Source of the DNA: Labilithrix sp.
Lineage (GTDB): Bacteria; Myxococcota; Polyangia; Polyangiales; Polyangiaceae
NCBI GenBank assembly: GCA_028287035.1
Contig: JAQBQL010000269.1
Span: 1 to 19,207 of the forward strand
Direction: 5' to 3'
DNA: 19,207 bases
Every line of letters begins with the position of its first letter. Position 1 is the first letter of the stretch. Below are positions 1,505 through 18,468 of the stretch, piece by piece. The position numbers and the translations under genes were made by a program. A model generated the notes under the pieces. It was not told the origin of the DNA. It did not search any database and saw nothing but the letters and a program-made list of their open reading frames with translations.

Positions 1505-2224
1505 ATGCACGACGAGGCGCAGCTCTGTCTTCCGCTGCGCCGGCGCGGGCGCGGTGGCGCACGCAAGAACGCGGGGCGCAAGCCGCTGCCGGCGGGGCTG
1601 CGGCGGACCGTTCATCGCGCGCGGCCGCCACTTTCTTCGCATACGCCGGTGCACATCACGTTACGCGCCGCGAAGGGAGCTCCGTCATTCCGTCACGAGT
1701 TGATGGCGCGCGCGATCGGCGGCGTGATCCGCGCGATGAAGGTCGCGCGTGACGACCTGCGGATCGTCGAGTTCTCGATCCAGAGCAACCATCTCCATCT
1801 CGTCGTGGAGGCGGACGACGAGCGCGCCCTCTCTAGCGCTATCCGCGGTTTCCAGACGCGCGTGTCACGGCGTCTCAACCACCATGTCCTGAGGCGTCGT
1901 CGCGGGGCGGTCTGGGGTGACAGGTACCATCGTGAGGACCTCACGAGCCGGCGCCAGGCACGTAACGCGCTCGTCTACGTCCTCCAGAATGGCCATCACC
2001 ACGGCGCAGTGAAACCGGGTATCCGTGACCCGCTCTCCTCCGCGCTCTGGTCCGAGCGCTTCATCCAGAGACCCGTGCTCCCGCCGGAAAGCTCCCCCTG
2101 CTCACGAGCATTGACGTTCATGCTGAGCCACCTGTGGGAAAAACAGTGGCCGGGCCTCATCTTCCCCACCGAGGTCCCGAAGGGCAGGTCGAACGGCCGA
2201 CGCCATGAGAAAGGGGGCATTTGA
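1505..2224 (+). CDS. REP-associated / IS200-like (Y1) transposase
   Basis: A predicted 239-residue single-strand DNA transposase of the REP-associated tyrosine transposase type, which nicks and joins DNA through one tyrosine. The N-terminus carries the Arg/Lys-rich GGARKNAGRKP motif (residues 17-27) common at the start of this family. A PVHITLR strand follows (48-54), and then the metal-binding HUH motif in SNHLHLVVE (His96 and His98). Candidate catalytic tyrosines are Tyr141 in GDRYHRED and Tyr158 in ALVYVLQN. The C-terminal part ends with a Trp-rich segment and an evenly spread tail, so the gene looks full length. ATG 1505 is preferred because the family N-terminus follows directly. It lies inside the flagellar gene train in the opposite direction, between fliM and fliN. 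No clear terminal inverted repeats were found, which fits this class. Confidence 0.85.
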   Translation: MHDEAQLCLPLRRRGRGGARKNAGRKPLPAGLRRTVHRARPPLSSHTPVHITLRAAKGAPSFRHELMARAIGGVIRAMKVARDDLRIVEFSIQSNHLHLVVEADDERALSSAIRGFQTRVSRRLNHHVLRRRRGAVWGDRYHREDLTSRRQARNALVYVLQNGHHHGAVKPGIRDPLSSALWSERFIQRPVLPPESSPCSRALTFMLSHLWEKQWPGLIFPTEVPKGRSNGRRHEKGGI

Positions 2225-2753: not shown

Positions 2754-3575
2754 CTACTTGACGATCTCGATCCCGATCGACCCGCCGTTCGACTTCGGTT
2801 TTCCGCGGAAGATCTCCGCGCCCCCCGCGCAGATGCGGGCGCACTCGTCGAGGCCCAGCGTCAGCTGCACGACGTCGCCGACCTGCAGGCTCGCGAGCGC
2901 GGTCAGCGGGATCTTCACCTTGCCGAGCTCCGCCACGACGTCGACCTCGACGTCCACCATGGCCGCGGCCATCGCGCCGTCGGACGAGGCCTTCGCGGCC
3001 GGGCTCTCGTCGAGCACGGACAGCGGGACCGCGATGGCGACGATGCCGCCGCCGGCGATCGTGAGCGTGCACACCGCGCCGACGCCGGCGGTGGTGAGGC
3101 CCGCGCCCGGCGCGAGCTCGATGGTCAGGCCGAGCCGCGTCTTCAGCGCCTCGGCAAAAGCCTTCAAGATGGTCTCCACGACGCGCGACGCGAGCGCGGT
3201 CTGCGCCGAGCTCAGCTCCGTCCGCGCGACGTTGTCGGGGTCCGGATCGCCGCCGCCGAGCACGCCATCGAGCACGCGATGCACCGCCATCGCATCGAGC
3301 GCGAGGACGCCGGGGGCCCTCGTCGGACCGGCGACGAAGGGCACCGTGAACGCGAGGTTCGGGATCGACTCCGGGAGCTCTGCGAAGAGCGCGCTCCTCG
3401 CCGGGCCCGCGATGACCGCGACGCGCTTGCGGGAGAGGAACGGGAGCACCCGGCGCAGCGAGGACGCGAGCTCGCCCGACGCCCGGTCGAGGTTGCCCTG
3501 GGCGCGCCGGCTGCGTTCGCCGCTCGTCCCGAGCTGGGCAAGCGCGTTCGGCTGGCTCTTGTGCGCCACGCTCAT
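2754..3575 (-). CDS. fliM: Flagellar motor switch protein FliM (short form)
   Basis: FliM is the middle ring component of the flagellar switch, linking FliG to FliN. At 273 residues this copy is shorter than the roughly 320-340 of classical FliM. The C-terminal SpoA domain is clear (MVDVEVDVVAELGKVKIPL, LASLQVGDVVQLTL, then ICAGGAEIFRGKPKSNGGSI), and the middle domain is recognisable (AFTVPFVAGPTRAPGVLALD, VLDGVLGGGDPD, LSSAQTALASRVVETILKAF). The usual N-terminal CheY-P-binding motif (consensus like LSQxEIDALL) is missing; the protein starts MSVAHKSQPNALAQLG. ATG 3575 overlaps the fliL stop (ATGA), which supports this start over upstream in-frame codons. FliM identity is based on the two-domain layout and the fliL neighbour. 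Confidence 0.9.
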   Translation of the reverse strand: MSVAHKSQPNALAQLGTSGERSRRAQGNLDRASGELASSLRRVLPFLSRKRVAVIAGPARSALFAELPESIPNLAFTVPFVAGPTRAPGVLALDAMAVHRVLDGVLGGGDPDPDNVARTELSSAQTALASRVVETILKAFAEALKTRLGLTIELAPGAGLTTAGVGAVCTLTIAGGGIVAIAVPLSVLDESPAAKASSDGAMAAAMVDVEVDVVAELGKVKIPLTALASLQVGDVVQLTLGLDECARICAGGAEIFRGKPKSNGGSIGIEIVK

Positions 3576-4105
3576 TGCAGCACGAAGTCCGTGACCAGGA
3601 TCTTCACCGCGTCCACGGCGCCGGCGCCGTGGCAACGCTCGAGCATCTCGGTGCGGACCTTCTCCATGTGGGCGCCGTCCGACGCCTCCTCGTAGCTCAT
3701 GGCGCGGACGTAGGAGAGGATCGCGTCGCGGATGCGCGGCGCGAACGGCTTCATGGCCTCGCCCTCCTTGCCTTCTTCTCCGCCGCCCTTCTCGGGCTTC
3801 TCGAACTCGATCGCGATCGTCAGCTTCATCGCGTGACCCTTGCCCTTGGCGTCGAGGATCGTCAGGAGAAAAGGGTCCAGCGCGACGGTCGGTCCCGGCG
3901 GCTTCGGCTCGCGGCGACGCTCGACCGGCGCCTCGGGCGCTGCCGCCGGCGCGTGCGCGGATGCCGCCCGCGCGCCCCCGTACGAAGCGCCGGCCGCGAG
4001 GAGCGCGGGGATCAGCATCTTCATGATTCCCGAGACCGCCGAGGACTTCGGCGCCTTGGCCGTCGTGGCGGTGGTCTCGGCAGGCTTCGCTTCGGGGGTA
4101 CTCAT
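3572..4105 (-). CDS. fliL: Flagellar basal body-associated protein FliL
   Basis: FliL is an inner-membrane protein with a periplasmic domain that surrounds and supports the MotA/MotB stator. The 177 residues show a Thr/Lys/Ala-rich cytoplasmic N-terminus, one modest membrane segment (about residues 27-46, MLIPALLAAGASYGG) and a Pro/Glu-rich linker. The FliL domain follows, with VALDPFLLTILD, MKLTIAIEFE, the IRDAILSYVRAMSYEEAS segment, and the C-terminal VDAVKILVTDFVLQ typical of the family. An acidic insert of Gly/Glu/Lys (EKGGGEEGKEGE) interrupts the domain. The ATG at 4105 follows a 68-base gap after flgE, the largest gap between consecutive genes in this train apart from the fliM-fliN insertion. 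The stop overlaps the fliM start. Confidence 0.93.
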   Translation of the reverse strand: MSTPEAKPAETTATTAKAPKSSAVSGIMKMLIPALLAAGASYGGARAASAHAPAAAPEAPVERRREPKPPGPTVALDPFLLTILDAKGKGHAMKLTIAIEFEKPEKGGGEEGKEGEAMKPFAPRIRDAILSYVRAMSYEEASDGAHMEKVRTEMLERCHGAGAVDAVKILVTDFVLQ

Positions 4106-14195: not shown

Positions 14196-14453
14196 ATGCT
14201 CAAGCTCACCAAACTCGATCAACGCTTCGTGGCCATCAACCCGACGCTCCTCGCCTGGCTCGAAGAGACGCCGGACACCGTGCTCGTCATGGTGGGTGGC
14301 CAGCGCATCATCGTGCGCGAGAAGGTCGACGAGGTGATGGAAGCCTTCGTCGCGTTCTACGAGCGCGTCGGCCGTGCGCCCGTGGTGGTGGCGGAGCCGG
14401 AGCTCGCCGACCTCTTCGCTGGCCGTAAATCCTCACGAGACGGAGATTACTGA
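14196..14453 (+). CDS. flbD: Flagellar protein FlbD (SwrD family)
   Basis: A small 85-residue protein of the FlbD/SwrD family, found next to hook or stator genes and reported in Bacillus subtilis to increase flagellar power. The family pattern is plain: MLKLTKLDQRFVAINPTLLA, then WLEETPDTVLVMVGGQRIIV and REKVDEVMEAFVAFYERVG. A charged tail of about 25 residues is extra. This is not the sigma-54 activator of Caulobacter that shares the name FlbD. ATG 14196 lies twelve bases after the predicted sigma-54 start point and has no Shine-Dalgarno site. The stop overlaps motA by one base (TGATG), so the two are probably coupled. Confidence 0.88.
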   Translation: MLKLTKLDQRFVAINPTLLAWLEETPDTVLVMVGGQRIIVREKVDEVMEAFVAFYERVGRAPVVVAEPELADLFAGRKSSRDGDY

Positions 14454-15223
14454 TGCAACCCGGGCCCATCATCGGCGTCGCCCTCGCCCTCTTCTGCATT
14501 CTGGTCGGTAACTTCCTCGAGGGCGGTCACGCGGGCTCGATGGTCGGCGGCCCTGCCGCCCTCATCGTGCTCGGCGGGACCATCGGCGCGGTGCTCGTCC
14601 AGTACCCGATCTCGACGTGCATCGCCGGCGTGAAGGCCGCCCTCGGCACCTTCAAGAAGCCCGACGAGGACGCCGAGAAGCTGGTCGAGGAGATCGCCGA
14701 CTACGCCCAGCGCGCCAGGCGGGACGGCATCCTCGCGCTCGAGAAGGTCGCGGAGACCGCCTCGGATCCCTTCCTTCGCAAGGCCCTCACGATGGCCGTC
14801 GACGGCGTCGATTCGCAATCTCTACGCGAGACCCTCGAGGTCGCGATCAGCCAGGAAGAAGAGCACGGCGAGGACGCGGCCAAGGCGCTCGAAGCCGGCG
14901 GCGGCTACTCCCCGACGGTCGGCATCATCGGGGCCGTCCTCGGCCTCATCCACGTCATGAGCAACCTGTCCGACATCAACGCCGTCGGCCACGGCATCGC
15001 CGCTGCGTTCGTCGCGACCATCTACGGCGTCGCCGTCGCCAACATCGTGTTCCTGCCCCTCGGCGGCCGCATCAAGATGCGCGTCAAGGAACGGGCGCAC
15101 GTCAGGGAGATGACCCTCACCGGCGTGCTCGCCATCCAGGCCGGCATGAACCCGAAGCTCGTGCGCGAGCGGCTCTCGCAGTTCCTTCCCAACCACGGTC
15201 CGGCCAAGGCGGCCGCGAAGTAA
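14453..15223 (+). CDS. motA: Flagellar motor stator protein MotA
   Basis: MotA is the membrane ring of the stator that turns ion flow into torque on FliG. The 256 residues contain four hydrophobic segments (about 4-20, 31-51, 149-168 and 178-201). The cytoplasmic loop carries the charged block RRDGILALEKVAETASDPFL expected to face FliG. The third segment has the conserved proline in SPTVGIIGAVLGLIHVM, and the fourth is GIAAAFVATIYGVAVANIVF. A basic cytoplasmic tail follows. GGAG seven bases before ATG 14453 serves as Shine-Dalgarno site. motB follows after ten bases. Confidence 0.96.
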   Translation: MQPGPIIGVALALFCILVGNFLEGGHAGSMVGGPAALIVLGGTIGAVLVQYPISTCIAGVKAALGTFKKPDEDAEKLVEEIADYAQRARRDGILALEKVAETASDPFLRKALTMAVDGVDSQSLRETLEVAISQEEEHGEDAAKALEAGGGYSPTVGIIGAVLGLIHVMSNLSDINAVGHGIAAAFVATIYGVAVANIVFLPLGGRIKMRVKERAHVREMTLTGVLAIQAGMNPKLVRERLSQFLPNHGPAKAAAK

Positions 15224-15233
15224 GCGGCGCATC

Positions 15234-16214
15234 ATGGCCCGCAAGAAGAAGCATCCCGAGCACATCAACCACGAACGCTGGCTCGTCAGCTACGCCGACT
15301 TCATCACGCTTCTCTTCGCGTTCTTCGTCGTCATGTTCGCCGTGTCGCAGGTCGACTCCAAGAAGGTCGGCCGCTTCACGGAGTCCTTCTCGAAGGCGGT
15401 CGGCGTCGACATCTTCCCGCAGCCCGGCCGCGGGATCATGCCCGGGGTGAGCAACGGTATCCCCTCTGCCGAGGACGACCCCTCGAAGAATTCGGCGCTG
15501 CCGGCCGACCTCGACGGCCTCCAGGCCAGCCTCACGCACGCCGACGAGAACAACCAGTCCGGGGCGCCCGGCGTCCAGGTGATCGCGCGCCGGAACGAGC
15601 TCGTGCTGCGGCTCGCCGATGGCCTTCTCTTCGAGAGCGGCACCGACGCGCTCCGCGAGCCCGCGGTGCTGGTGCTCCAGAAGCTCGCCGTCGAGCTGAA
15701 GACGCGAAACGTGGACGTGCGGGTCGAAGGTCACACCGACCCACGCCCCATCCGGAACGGACGCTTCCGCTCGAACTGGGATCTCTCGACCTCGCGCGCC
15801 ACGGCGGTCGTCGCCCGGCTCGCCGCCGAGGGCATCGCCGCCAAGCGCCTGTCCGCCGCGGGCTACGGCGAGTTCCACCCGATCGCGCCGAACACGAGCG
15901 AGGACGGGATGAAGAAGAACCGGCGCGTCGACCTCATCGTGAGCATCACGCAGAAGGACGCGCCCGAGACGGTGCTCAAGGAGGCCAACGACAAGCCGGC
16001 CGACAAGCCCGTGACGGCCGACAAGCCGAAGGCCGCCAGGCCGGTGACGGACAAGGACCGCGTCGAGAAGCTCGAAAAAGAGCTGAACGACGTGCTCGAG
16101 CCCGCCCGCGACAAGCCCGTGGCGCCCGCGCCTGCGGCACACGAATCGCACGAGGAAGGTCACTCCGCGCCTTCCGAAGAGTCGCTCGACTCCACGCCCC
16201 CTCACCACGAATGA
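15234..16214 (+). CDS. motB: Flagellar motor stator protein MotB with long C-terminal tail
   Basis: MotB anchors the stator to peptidoglycan and carries the ion-binding aspartate. The 326-residue product shows the N-terminal membrane helix WLVSYADFITLLFAFFVVMF with Asp22 as the ion-binding residue, a plug/linker region, and an OmpA-like peptidoglycan-binding domain (about residues 115-236) with VEGHTDPRPIRN, NWDLSTSRATAVV and LSAAGYGEFHPI motifs. Beyond it is an unusual tail of about 85 residues rich in Lys, Pro, Ala and Glu with repeated 'DKP' and a His/Glu-rich end (HESHEEGHSAPSEE). The stop overlaps the next gene (ATGA). Whether ions are protons or sodium cannot be read from the sequence alone. 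Confidence 0.95.
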   Translation: MARKKKHPEHINHERWLVSYADFITLLFAFFVVMFAVSQVDSKKVGRFTESFSKAVGVDIFPQPGRGIMPGVSNGIPSAEDDPSKNSALPADLDGLQASLTHADENNQSGAPGVQVIARRNELVLRLADGLLFESGTDALREPAVLVLQKLAVELKTRNVDVRVEGHTDPRPIRNGRFRSNWDLSTSRATAVVARLAAEGIAAKRLSAAGYGEFHPIAPNTSEDGMKKNRRVDLIVSITQKDAPETVLKEANDKPADKPVTADKPKAARPVTDKDRVEKLEKELNDVLEPARDKPVAPAPAAHESHEEGHSAPSEESLDSTPPHHE

Positions 16215-16726
16215 ACATGTCTGCCCATCGCCTCGTCTCGAGCTCCCTCGTCGCCCTCGCCCTCCTCGCCGCTCCGCTCACCGCCTCGGCGCAGCGGTAC
16301 GTCCCCTCCGCCACGTTCGAGGCCGGCAACGGCATGCAGGGCGGTGGCGGGCGCGAGTCCTCGCTCGTCCGCGCTCCGACGCGGCTCCGTGCGGGCGCCG
16401 ACGTCCACGTCGACGAGGACCCCGAGAACGTCATCGGCGCGGCGGGGATCGTCGATCTCGAGCCCCGCACCCGCTTCGGCGCCGATCTCCGCTACATCCG
16501 CACCGTCGGGGAGCACTTCGCGCTGAGCGGCGGCGCCATCGCTTACATCACGCCCGGCACGATGATCGGGCCCGCGGCGACCCTCGAGTACCGCCATCCG
16601 TTCGCGAAGCAGCTGATGCTCACCGCCGGGCCCGAGGTGAACGTCTTCGTCGTGGGCATCGACGTCCCGGACAAGACGGTCATCTGGCAGGCGCTCCTCC
16701 ACATCGGCCTTCGCGTGGATCTCTGA
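16211..16726 (+). CDS. Predicted outer-membrane beta-barrel-like protein in the mot operon
   Basis: A 171-residue exported protein I cannot assign to a named family. It has a Sec signal peptide (MNMSAHRLVSSSLVALALLA, cleavage likely after TASA at residue 27). The rest consists of alternating hydrophobic/polar strands such as ADLRYIRTVGEHFALSGGAI, AYITPGTMIGPAATLEYRHP and LMLTAGPEVNVFVVGID, ending LLHIGLRVDL. Ending on a beta strand with an aromatic-poor terminal residue suits a small outer-membrane barrel or a periplasmic beta protein. It overlaps motB by four bases and is followed nine bases later by a lipoprotein gene, so it is part of the flbD-motA-motB transcript. A role near the stator is inferred from position only. 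Confidence 0.75.
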   Translation: MNMSAHRLVSSSLVALALLAAPLTASAQRYVPSATFEAGNGMQGGGGRESSLVRAPTRLRAGADVHVDEDPENVIGAAGIVDLEPRTRFGADLRYIRTVGEHFALSGGAIAYITPGTMIGPAATLEYRHPFAKQLMLTAGPEVNVFVVGIDVPDKTVIWQALLHIGLRVDL

Positions 16727-16735
16727 AAGGCTGCC

Positions 16736-17062
16736 ATGAACACCCCGCATTTCCGCTGGTTCCTGCTCGCCTCGGCCGGCACGCTGCTCGCGCTCGCCGC
16801 CTGCACGCTCGCGCCGGACCACTGCATCGCGATGAGCGACTGCGACGACGGCACCACCTGCAAGGAGGGGCTGTGCGTGTCGAACAACGACGACGACATC
16901 ACGCAGACGGTCAGCGACGCTGGCGCGGGCCCGGCCACCCCGCCCGATTCCGGCACGACGACGAGCTCGCTCGCGGCCGAGGCCTCGGCCGACGCCGGTG
17001 ACGTCGATGCGGCCGACGGCGCGAGCGTCGACGCCATGACGGACGCACCGTCGGACGGCTGA
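16736..17062 (+). CDS. Small Asp/Ala-rich lipoprotein
   Basis: A 108-residue predicted lipoprotein of unknown function. The signal (FRWFLLASAGTLLALAAC) ends in the lipobox LAAC with Cys23 as the lipid anchor. The mature start carries a compact cysteine module, HCIAMSDCDDGTTCKEGLC, of the kind common in myxobacterial surface lipoproteins. The remaining 60 residues are a disordered, strongly acidic tail of Asp/Ala/Ser/Thr. Shine-Dalgarno AAAGG lies five bases before the ATG. It is nine bases after the preceding gene and the last gene of the mot operon before a hairpin. Confidence 0.8.
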   Translation: MNTPHFRWFLLASAGTLLALAACTLAPDHCIAMSDCDDGTTCKEGLCVSNNDDDITQTVSDAGAGPATPPDSGTTTSSLAAEASADAGDVDAADGASVDAMTDAPSDG

Positions 17063-17191: not shown

Positions 17192-17219
17192 TTGCAACGC
17201 AACGTCGCTCGGCTACCAT
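17192..17219 (+). promoter_or_regulatory. Sigma-70-type promoter for the protease locus
   Basis: TTGCAA and TACCAT are separated by 16 bases; each matches the housekeeping consensus at four of six positions. The predicted start lies about 50 bases before the ATG at 17276. It separates the lower-GC protease genes from the mot operon. Confidence 0.4.
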
Positions 17220-17275
17220 GCGTGCAGGTCGGCAACACCTCGTTGCGGAGGCACGAGCAGTCTGGGGGGACAACT

Positions 17276-17740
17276 ATGCATCCGTATCGAGTCGCACATT
17301 GGGCTAGACCAGCAATTCTTGTGGCCTCTTGCATTGCCGGCGTGGCCGCGTCGTCGTGCAGTGACGATAGCTTCAGCGATCAAACGCTACGACCGTCGCG
17401 TTCTCGTCACTACGACGCAGCCTTCCCCGATTCTATTCTCAACAAGCCCGCCGATTTCGTAGACCCGCTCGGCAGAGCTTGGCACCTAGTCGGACCGGGA
17501 AAACATCGCGAGGCGGGTTATCCGACCGAGCTCCAAGATATTCCGCGGCCAACCGGCAGGGTCTCGATACTAGATGCCCCCACAAGCGTCGAGGAGCGTC
17601 GCGAACGGTTGGCGCAAGCACTCAAGGCCGTGCGCCTGATCAACGGATTCGAGTACCGACTGGACGAACCAGACTACGCGCTAGCGGATCGAGTACTGAG
17701 CGGAGTTCGGGTGCCCGATACGGACCCGTGTCAGGGTTAG
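17276..17740 (+). CDS. Exported N-terminal segment (probable signal and propeptide of a serine protease, split by a frameshift)
   Basis: A 154-residue open frame with a strong Shine-Dalgarno run (GGGGGGA, five bases from the ATG). The N-terminus is an export signal (MHPYRVAHWARPAILVASCI, ending AASSC with Cys28 as a possible lipid anchor). The rest is hydrophilic and mostly helical: SVEERRERLAQALKAVRLIN then GFEYRLDEPDYALADRVLSG, which reads like a protease pro-region. It shows no domain I recognise. It stops at 17740, and the serine protease domain begins just beyond in the -1 frame without a signal of its own. I therefore infer that the two were one gene. It could instead be a separate small lipoprotein. 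GC content is lower than in the flagellar region. Confidence 0.65.
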   Translation: MHPYRVAHWARPAILVASCIAGVAASSCSDDSFSDQTLRPSRSRHYDAAFPDSILNKPADFVDPLGRAWHLVGPGKHREAGYPTELQDIPRPTGRVSILDAPTSVEERRERLAQALKAVRLINGFEYRLDEPDYALADRVLSGVRVPDTDPCQG

Positions 17741-17751
17741 AACACGTATCT

Positions 17752-18468
17752 ATGGTAGCGCCGAGAACTGCGAGTGGGCTCGAACCGCAGACCATCCTAG
17801 GATCCGACGACCGCTGGCGAGTTGGCTACCCCACTTCTGCGATGAGCGGTTACGCCCCATTCGGATTCATCAGTACGGGTTGCACATGCACGCTGATCGG
17901 ACCCAGTACCGCGCTTACGGCGGCACATTGCTTGTACCTAAATGGCCACTACAACTTCGGAAACGGGAACTATCCAGGTGTTGGCTTCGGCGCTGAAAGG
18001 AGTGATTCAACCGGTCAACCCATATACCCCTACGGGACGCAGTCGGCTGGGTGGGCGATTCCCAATGCATGGATCAATGACTCGTACCTGCCGTCTCCAA
18101 ATTGGGAGTACGATTTCGCCATTTTAGAGTTTGGGCAAGACATTGGGAATTCCACCGGCTGGTATGGCACAACGGCTGGTTTTCCAGCCTGGATGGAATG
18201 GCATGGCCGCATTGGATTCCCGGCAATGTATGGGCTACCGAGCATGTGGATGGCATCGGGGCGCAACGGCTACGCTTCGTCGGCGACTAACGGCCAGGTT
18301 GATTTCTACTGGGATGCCACTGCAGGCGATAGTGGCGGATCGTTTTGGCGGTCGAGCGACAGCCGCGTCTTCATGCACGTTAGTTATGAAAGTTCAAACT
18401 GGAACACTGCAAGAAAATGGGATTCCACAACGTACGCCTTCGTCCACACCTATGGAAACTGGCCGTAA
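17752..18468 (+). CDS. Trypsin-like serine protease domain (V8/glutamyl-endopeptidase type, S1 fold), probably 5'-truncated by frameshift
   Basis: A 238-residue open frame from ATG 17752 with a complete catalytic triad: His59 in ALTAAHCLY, Asp121 in WEYDFAILEF and Ser194 in AGDSGGSFW. A likely mature N-terminus is QTILGSDDRWRVGYP, resembling the 'vIGxDDR' start of V8-like proteases. Cys44 and Cys60 can form the disulphide flanking the active-site His. The domain is rich in Trp, Tyr, Asn and Gly, as in secreted enzymes. The frame has no signal peptide of its own and no Shine-Dalgarno site; the signal lies in the upstream frame that ends 12 bases earlier. The frame stays open upstream to about 17479, consistent with a -1 shift somewhere before 17738. 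The active-site residues look intact. Confidence 0.85.
   Translation: MVAPRTASGLEPQTILGSDDRWRVGYPTSAMSGYAPFGFISTGCTCTLIGPSTALTAAHCLYLNGHYNFGNGNYPGVGFGAERSDSTGQPIYPYGTQSAGWAIPNAWINDSYLPSPNWEYDFAILEFGQDIGNSTGWYGTTAGFPAWMEWHGRIGFPAMYGLPSMWMASGRNGYASSATNGQVDFYWDATAGDSGGSFWRSSDSRVFMHVSYESSNWNTARKWDSTTYAFVHTYGNWP

Follow-up and report, generated by a model that had tools for sequence, protein, structure and literature searches.

Here we describe a pair of neighbouring genes, A and B, which is very probably dedicated to the flagellum and whose products are predicted to be an integral outer-membrane beta-barrel and an outer-membrane lipoprotein, respectively. In myxobacterial relatives the two genes are kept together, mostly within flagellum gene clusters, which makes it probable that the pair is a new component of the flagellum at the outer membrane and not of its force generator. 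It was analysed in a stretch of 19,207 nucleotides from Labilithrix sp. (Myxococcota; contig JAQBQL010000269.1), referred to here as the window, which contains the following features.

14196 to 14453, plus strand: flbD (Pfam PF06289, E 1.3e-17), first gene of the flbD-motA-motB-A-B series.
14453 to 15223, plus strand: motA (PF01618, E 2.1e-30; also PF20560).
15234 to 16214, plus strand: motB (PF13677, E 1.3e-21; PF00691, E 5.5e-16), with an ATGA overlap with A.
16211 to 16726, plus strand: A, 171 aa, with a signal peptide at about residues 1-28 (by eye) and a predicted 8-stranded outer-membrane beta-barrel at residues 30-170.
16298 to 16720, plus strand: barrel part of A, with predicted strands 30-45, 51-67, 70-82, 88-99, 103-114, 118-130, 135-146 and 158-170.
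16736 to 17062, plus strand: B, a predicted lipoprotein of 108 aa with a signal, lipobox LAAC, Cys module and Asp/Ala-rich tail.
16802 to 16876, plus strand: Cys module of B, C-x6-C-x5-C-x5-C-x4-C, the first Cys being presumably lipidated.
16877 to 17059, plus strand: acidic low-complexity tail of B, 61 aa (D+E 0.21, K+R 0).

The five genes of the series run in one direction, and the left side of the window carries flagellar genes, from fliN to flgB, in the opposite one; the latter were assigned by visual inspection, and Pfam supports fliN, fliM, fliL, fliE, fliF, fliG and, as a rod protein, flgC. The four-base ATGA overlap between motB and A and the gap of nine bases between A and B, on which an earlier note on this DNA had drawn, are exact to the base. 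Comparison was extended to 64 loci, namely the window, L001 and up to 20 kb around A from 62 further genomes.

Some observations concern the window itself. An IS200-like Y1 transposase gene (1505-2224, plus strand; PF01797, E 2e-9) lies between fliN (178-525) and fliM (2754-3635), whereas in L047, L053 and L071 the two genes are found close together. On the other side of the pair, a trypsin-like protease region (17192-18468, plus strand; PF00089, E 1.3e-5) is distributed over two overlapping frames in a frameshift-like arrangement. While flgG is found at no more than 0.7 kb from A in 12 of the 23 MotB-linked loci, the window has other genes there, followed by the end of the contig; among its close kin, flgG lies about 5 kb (L032) and about 8 kb (L035) from the pair, and none is present within 8 kb in L033. 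The stretch 3' of the pair in the window, L032, L033 and L035 may be an insertion hotspot.

AlphaFold2 (AF2) modelled A as an 8-stranded barrel (pLDDT 88.8) whose structural matches are barrels of the NspA/OprF/OmpA type, at 8-12% identity. A thus presents the N-terminal 8-stranded barrel of the OmpA family as a likeness of fold only, without sequence relation, and it differs from OmpA and OprF by the absence of the C-terminal peptidoglycan-binding domain (PF00691), which, within the window, was found in MotB only. The window's A had no Pfam match at E<=1, and a sequence search of the PDB gave one match only, at E 2.2. Some relatives of A have weak matches to Porin_4, NtrZ or HutF_N; membership of either protein in a Pfam or NCBIfam family was considered and rejected, the best Pfam match being Porin_4 in 4 of 32 A proteins (best E 2.3e-4). 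A first protein comparison gave 31 homologues of A. Conservation along A is unevenly distributed: the loop at residues 147-157, with a GxDxP motif, is strongly conserved, the conserved charged residues R54 and R94 sit in strands and, if the topology is standard, outer loops L2, L3 and L4 reach 2.56, 2.55 and 2.48 bits against a mean of 1.91, with L1 at 1.25.

B has the signal peptide and lipobox Cys of a lipoprotein. A residue of the [AGS] class precedes the presumed lipid Cys in 29 of 33 B proteins, as judged by eye after reassigning that Cys in L041 and L062 (27 of 33 by script placement), and is missing in four. The five Cys of the module are invariant across 31 aligned B proteins. In the structural model the module is confident (pLDDT 87-89, blocks 31-50) and the tail is low (53-70), and the prediction for the window's B contains no globular C-terminal domain. 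Only sub-threshold Cys-module matches were obtained in Pfam and only knottin-like matches, at E>1, with Foldseek, and a sequence search with B alone retrieved one relative besides B itself.

The association of both genes is maintained in most loci. Of the 63 testable ones, which are the 64 loci minus L053, ending at a contig edge, 59 have a B-type lipoprotein gene next to A. In 49 loci B lies 3' of A in the same orientation, and in L054 it can be recognised beyond a run of N. In nine others (L118, L120-L123, L125, L126, L128 and L134) B is divergent from A and carries the same Cys module; the B proteins of this clade are in most cases longer, and the majority have a C-terminal part; the three that were scanned had no Pfam family over the cut-off. 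A clade of A without B, comprising at first 13 loci, was accordingly rejected, given that nine of the 13 are these divergent cases. No B was found by A in L127, L131, L132 and L138; in the first three of them, A follows a ParA/MinD-like ATPase gene and precedes an S30AE-like gene. When the count is restricted to flagellar-linked loci, B adjoins A in all 47 that are testable (48 minus L053, with L054 judged by eye). The same 14-base A/B overlap (e.g., 10479-10492 in L001) occurs in 14 of 33 measured pairs, in which B starts were chosen by script, so that the DNA for the end of the barrel also encodes the start of B.

A lipoprotein paired with a barrel could suggest a sensor of the RcsF/OmpA kind, in which B would be threaded through A or bound to it, partly exposed at the surface, and would signal the condition of the envelope or surface in connection with flagellar activity. 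RcsF has indeed been described, in the parts of the reports considered here, as a lipoprotein complexed with barrel proteins including OmpA (PMC4942254, PMC7553776), and, under the standard topology, the conservation of three of A's four outer loops exceeds the mean, which is unusual for exposed loops. Nevertheless, R54 and R94 may fill the small lumen of A, and the window's B has no predicted globular C-terminal domain, a part that the longer proteins of the divergent clade possess. Among the neighbours noticed, no signalling gene accompanies A throughout the loci. The likeness holds at the level of description only: RcsF is presented in those parts as an envelope stress sensor, whereas the A-B pair is found mostly in flagellar clusters. 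We regard a sensor of this kind as unlikely.

The genomic contexts point to the flagellum as a whole. In 48 of the 64 loci A is located among flagellar genes or close to them, and these placements are of six kinds. Neighbour labels were assigned by us; Pfam agrees for FlbD, MotA, MotB, FliN, FliM, FliL, FlgA, FlgH, FlgI, FliE, FliF and FliG, and describes the query genes of FlgG as an FlgE/F/G-type rod protein and of FlgC as a rod protein. The FlgB and FlgJ query genes had no Pfam match, and the labels FlgM, FlgD, FlgE, FliK, FliI and FliH are our assignments only. MotB is upstream of A in 23 loci, with the ATGA overlap in the window and L001. In eight loci flgG is next to the pair but flbD-motA-motB is missing; the sequence covers both flanks in six of them, L045 ending before flgG and L054 just upstream. 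The pair follows flgA in two loci (flgH is the next gene in L037, and L050 stops at this point) and fliD-fliS in ten, of which FliD is confirmed by Pfam in six, fliT was found in nine and fliC in nine. It stands beside fliL-fliM-fliN, divergently, in one locus, and in four A is separated from flgB by about 4 kb, FliF being encoded on the same contigs.

A is away from flagellar genes in the remaining 16 loci. Thirteen of them group in a single clade (96/85 support), and most of these have a housekeeping neighbour, either S30AE-like (9) or L-PSP-like (6), some having both (BLAST groups, named from L118). One member of this clade, L138, has a very long branch and fliC at 5 kb. The other three, L119, L137 and L141, have B, and no flagellar neighbour was found for them. 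Over the tree of A, the type of locus changes nine times, the least possible being seven and the shuffled mean 37.

The ten fliD-fliS loci, with fliT and fliC nearby in most, bring to mind the membrane-covered filament, which A and B would coat as flagellar sheath proteins, and a review of the subject reports, in the part considered, that outer-membrane proteins occur in sheaths (PMC7175336). However, 33 of the 64 loci have the pair with motB, flgG or flgA instead. The string "myxo" is absent from the main text of that review, which thus names no sheathed Myxococcota. A coat of the filament is, in our opinion, improbable.

The position beside motB had led the earlier note to propose a stator or outer-membrane accessory system. 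In Vibrio, extra envelope proteins form the H-ring and T-ring (FlgO, FlgP, FlgT, MotX and MotY), close to the L/P ring or the stator. Neither A nor B matches any of these families, or any other named motor accessory, in Pfam, which bears out the remark of the same note that no likeness to MotX, MotY or FlgT was visible. Specifically, FlgT domains and the OmpA-like peptidoglycan-binding C-terminal domain of the MotY type were sought in A and B with Pfam and are absent; FlgT_M was over the cut-off in none of 282 Myxococcota genomes, but neither was it in any of 14 control genomes. A pair holding MotB in the manner of MotX, MotY or FlgT would be consistent with the 23 loci in which MotB is upstream and with the ATGA overlaps, but it would lack the corresponding domains.

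The stator-specific role is rejected because the pair occurs by flgG without motAB in eight loci and after fliD-fliS in ten, to which the two loci after flgA can be added. The eight constitute a single branch (95/87), which is nested within motB-linked loci; a sigma-54 activator is upstream of the pair in the seven that are testable, and each of the eight genomes encodes a MotB domain at another place, on the same contig in five. The nesting suggests, as the simplest course, that the pair stayed by flgG when flbD-motAB left, though the tree is unrooted and does not by itself prove the direction of this change. Taken with the fliD-fliS clade, the branch indicates that the shared factor is the flagellum and not the stator, and we consider a stator accessory very unlikely.

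The distribution of A agrees with this. In an even draw of 282 Myxococcota genomes, of unstated completeness, with 12 candidates per genome scored for A and FliF accepted at E<=1e-40, A was matched in 38 of 85 FliF-positive genomes and in none of 197 FliF-negative ones (Fisher 1.2e-23, uncorrected for kinship). Homologues lying mostly away from flagellar genes, or in genomes without flagella, had been named in the earlier note as the pattern that would speak against its proposal; they were looked for, and the prevailing linkage of A together with its absence from the FliF-negative sample shows the reverse. The proposal consequently stands as regards an outer-membrane accessory linked to the flagellum, and falls as regards the stator. 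FlgH was matched in 104 of the 282 genomes, more than FliF, so some genomes counted as FliF-negative may have flagella; this figure is also far above that of A, which does not therefore track the L-ring as such. FlgH was unmatched in three A-positive genomes (G175, G236 and G328), and no A was matched in 47 of the 85 FliF-positive genomes under the scoring of 12 candidates each.

A closer sample comprised 96 relatives around the Labilithrix genome, with FliF taken at E below 1e-50, clear of YscJ (about 1e-27 or weaker). A first profile (A1) matched 33 of them, once each, and a second one (A2, 47 rows) 40, while FliF is present in 41. With A2, A was found in 36 of the 41 FliF-positive relatives and in four of the 55 FliF-negative ones. 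Among the latter, G033 and G040 carry A on contigs that include flagellar genes, G090 has it after fliC-fliD-fliS-fliT, and the match in G047 is a weak fragment (E 1.8e-4), which was left out of a second Fisher test, likewise uncorrected for kinship. The FliF-positive relatives without an A match are G013, G020, G058, G061 and G094. In G058 the order is MotB-FlgG-FlgA-FlgH-FlgI, the MotB and FlgG matches are 192 bases apart and A is missing, an empty slot indicating that the pair is dispensable for having a flagellar cluster. A search of genome contigs with A1 returned one locus, in the Labilithrix MAG, and a wider protein search with A2 returned 49 proteins among 7995 candidates scored. A generic barrel and lipoprotein merely hitch-hiking in flagellar operons, as the 16 unlinked A genes and the empty slot of G058 might suggest, is the least credible of the explanations, since all 38 carriers of the phylum sample are FliF-positive, those with unlinked copies included, and the pair occupies several different flagellar sites.

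For the flagellum-dedicated pair we propose a complete mechanism, to which we assign somewhat less than an even chance: A-B would be a module of flagellated Myxococcota that reinforces and seals the outer membrane at the rod and L-ring. A would be integrated in the outer membrane as an 8-stranded barrel, and B anchored beside it by its lipid, its small disulfide module being placed at the membrane and its tail being flexible and acidic. Both would be made together, often from overlapping genes; the conserved short loops of A and the Cys module of B would bind each other and a flagellar outer-membrane component, and the membrane would thus be strengthened and sealed, against rotation, at the point crossed by the rod and L-ring. 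The sequences, the pairing of the genes, the near-confinement of A to flagellated genomes and its placement in flagellar clusters are observed directly; the outer-membrane location is inferred from predictions, and the physical contact between A and B, the position at the L-ring and the function as a seal are likewise inferences. The module would work like the FapH ring of Helicobacter pylori or the H-ring of Vibrio, but around an integral barrel.

In the parts of the literature considered here, FapH (HP0838) is described as an outer-membrane lipoprotein of H. pylori, encoded in an operon with flgP and believed to shield the outer membrane while flagella rotate (PMC12472139, PMC11756786), and its loss causes sensitivity to bacitracin only when flagella turn (PMC12472139). 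Compared by description, both systems include an outer-membrane lipoprotein, predicted in the case of B, encoded among flagellar genes; B is paired with the barrel A, whereas no integral barrel partner of FapH is described in the part of the paper considered (PMC12472139). Among the titles and abstract beginnings retrieved from the open-access literature, none describes the A-B pair.

Myxococcota are known mainly for gliding, and we found little literature on their flagella, for which A-B provides a clear marker. The case also illustrates that gene order in one genome, here the position beside motB, can mislead on function. To our knowledge, the extra motor parts known so far are periplasmic or lipid-anchored. 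It is conceivable, although we hold it to be rather doubtful, that A-B represents the first transmembrane outer-membrane barrel dedicated to the flagellum with its own lipoprotein partner, i.e., a structural part of the Myxococcota motor, located at the outer membrane, that changed from one flagellar operon to another without losing that partner. If true, a conserved integral barrel accompanied by its own lipoprotein would constitute a new way of joining the flagellum to the outer membrane.
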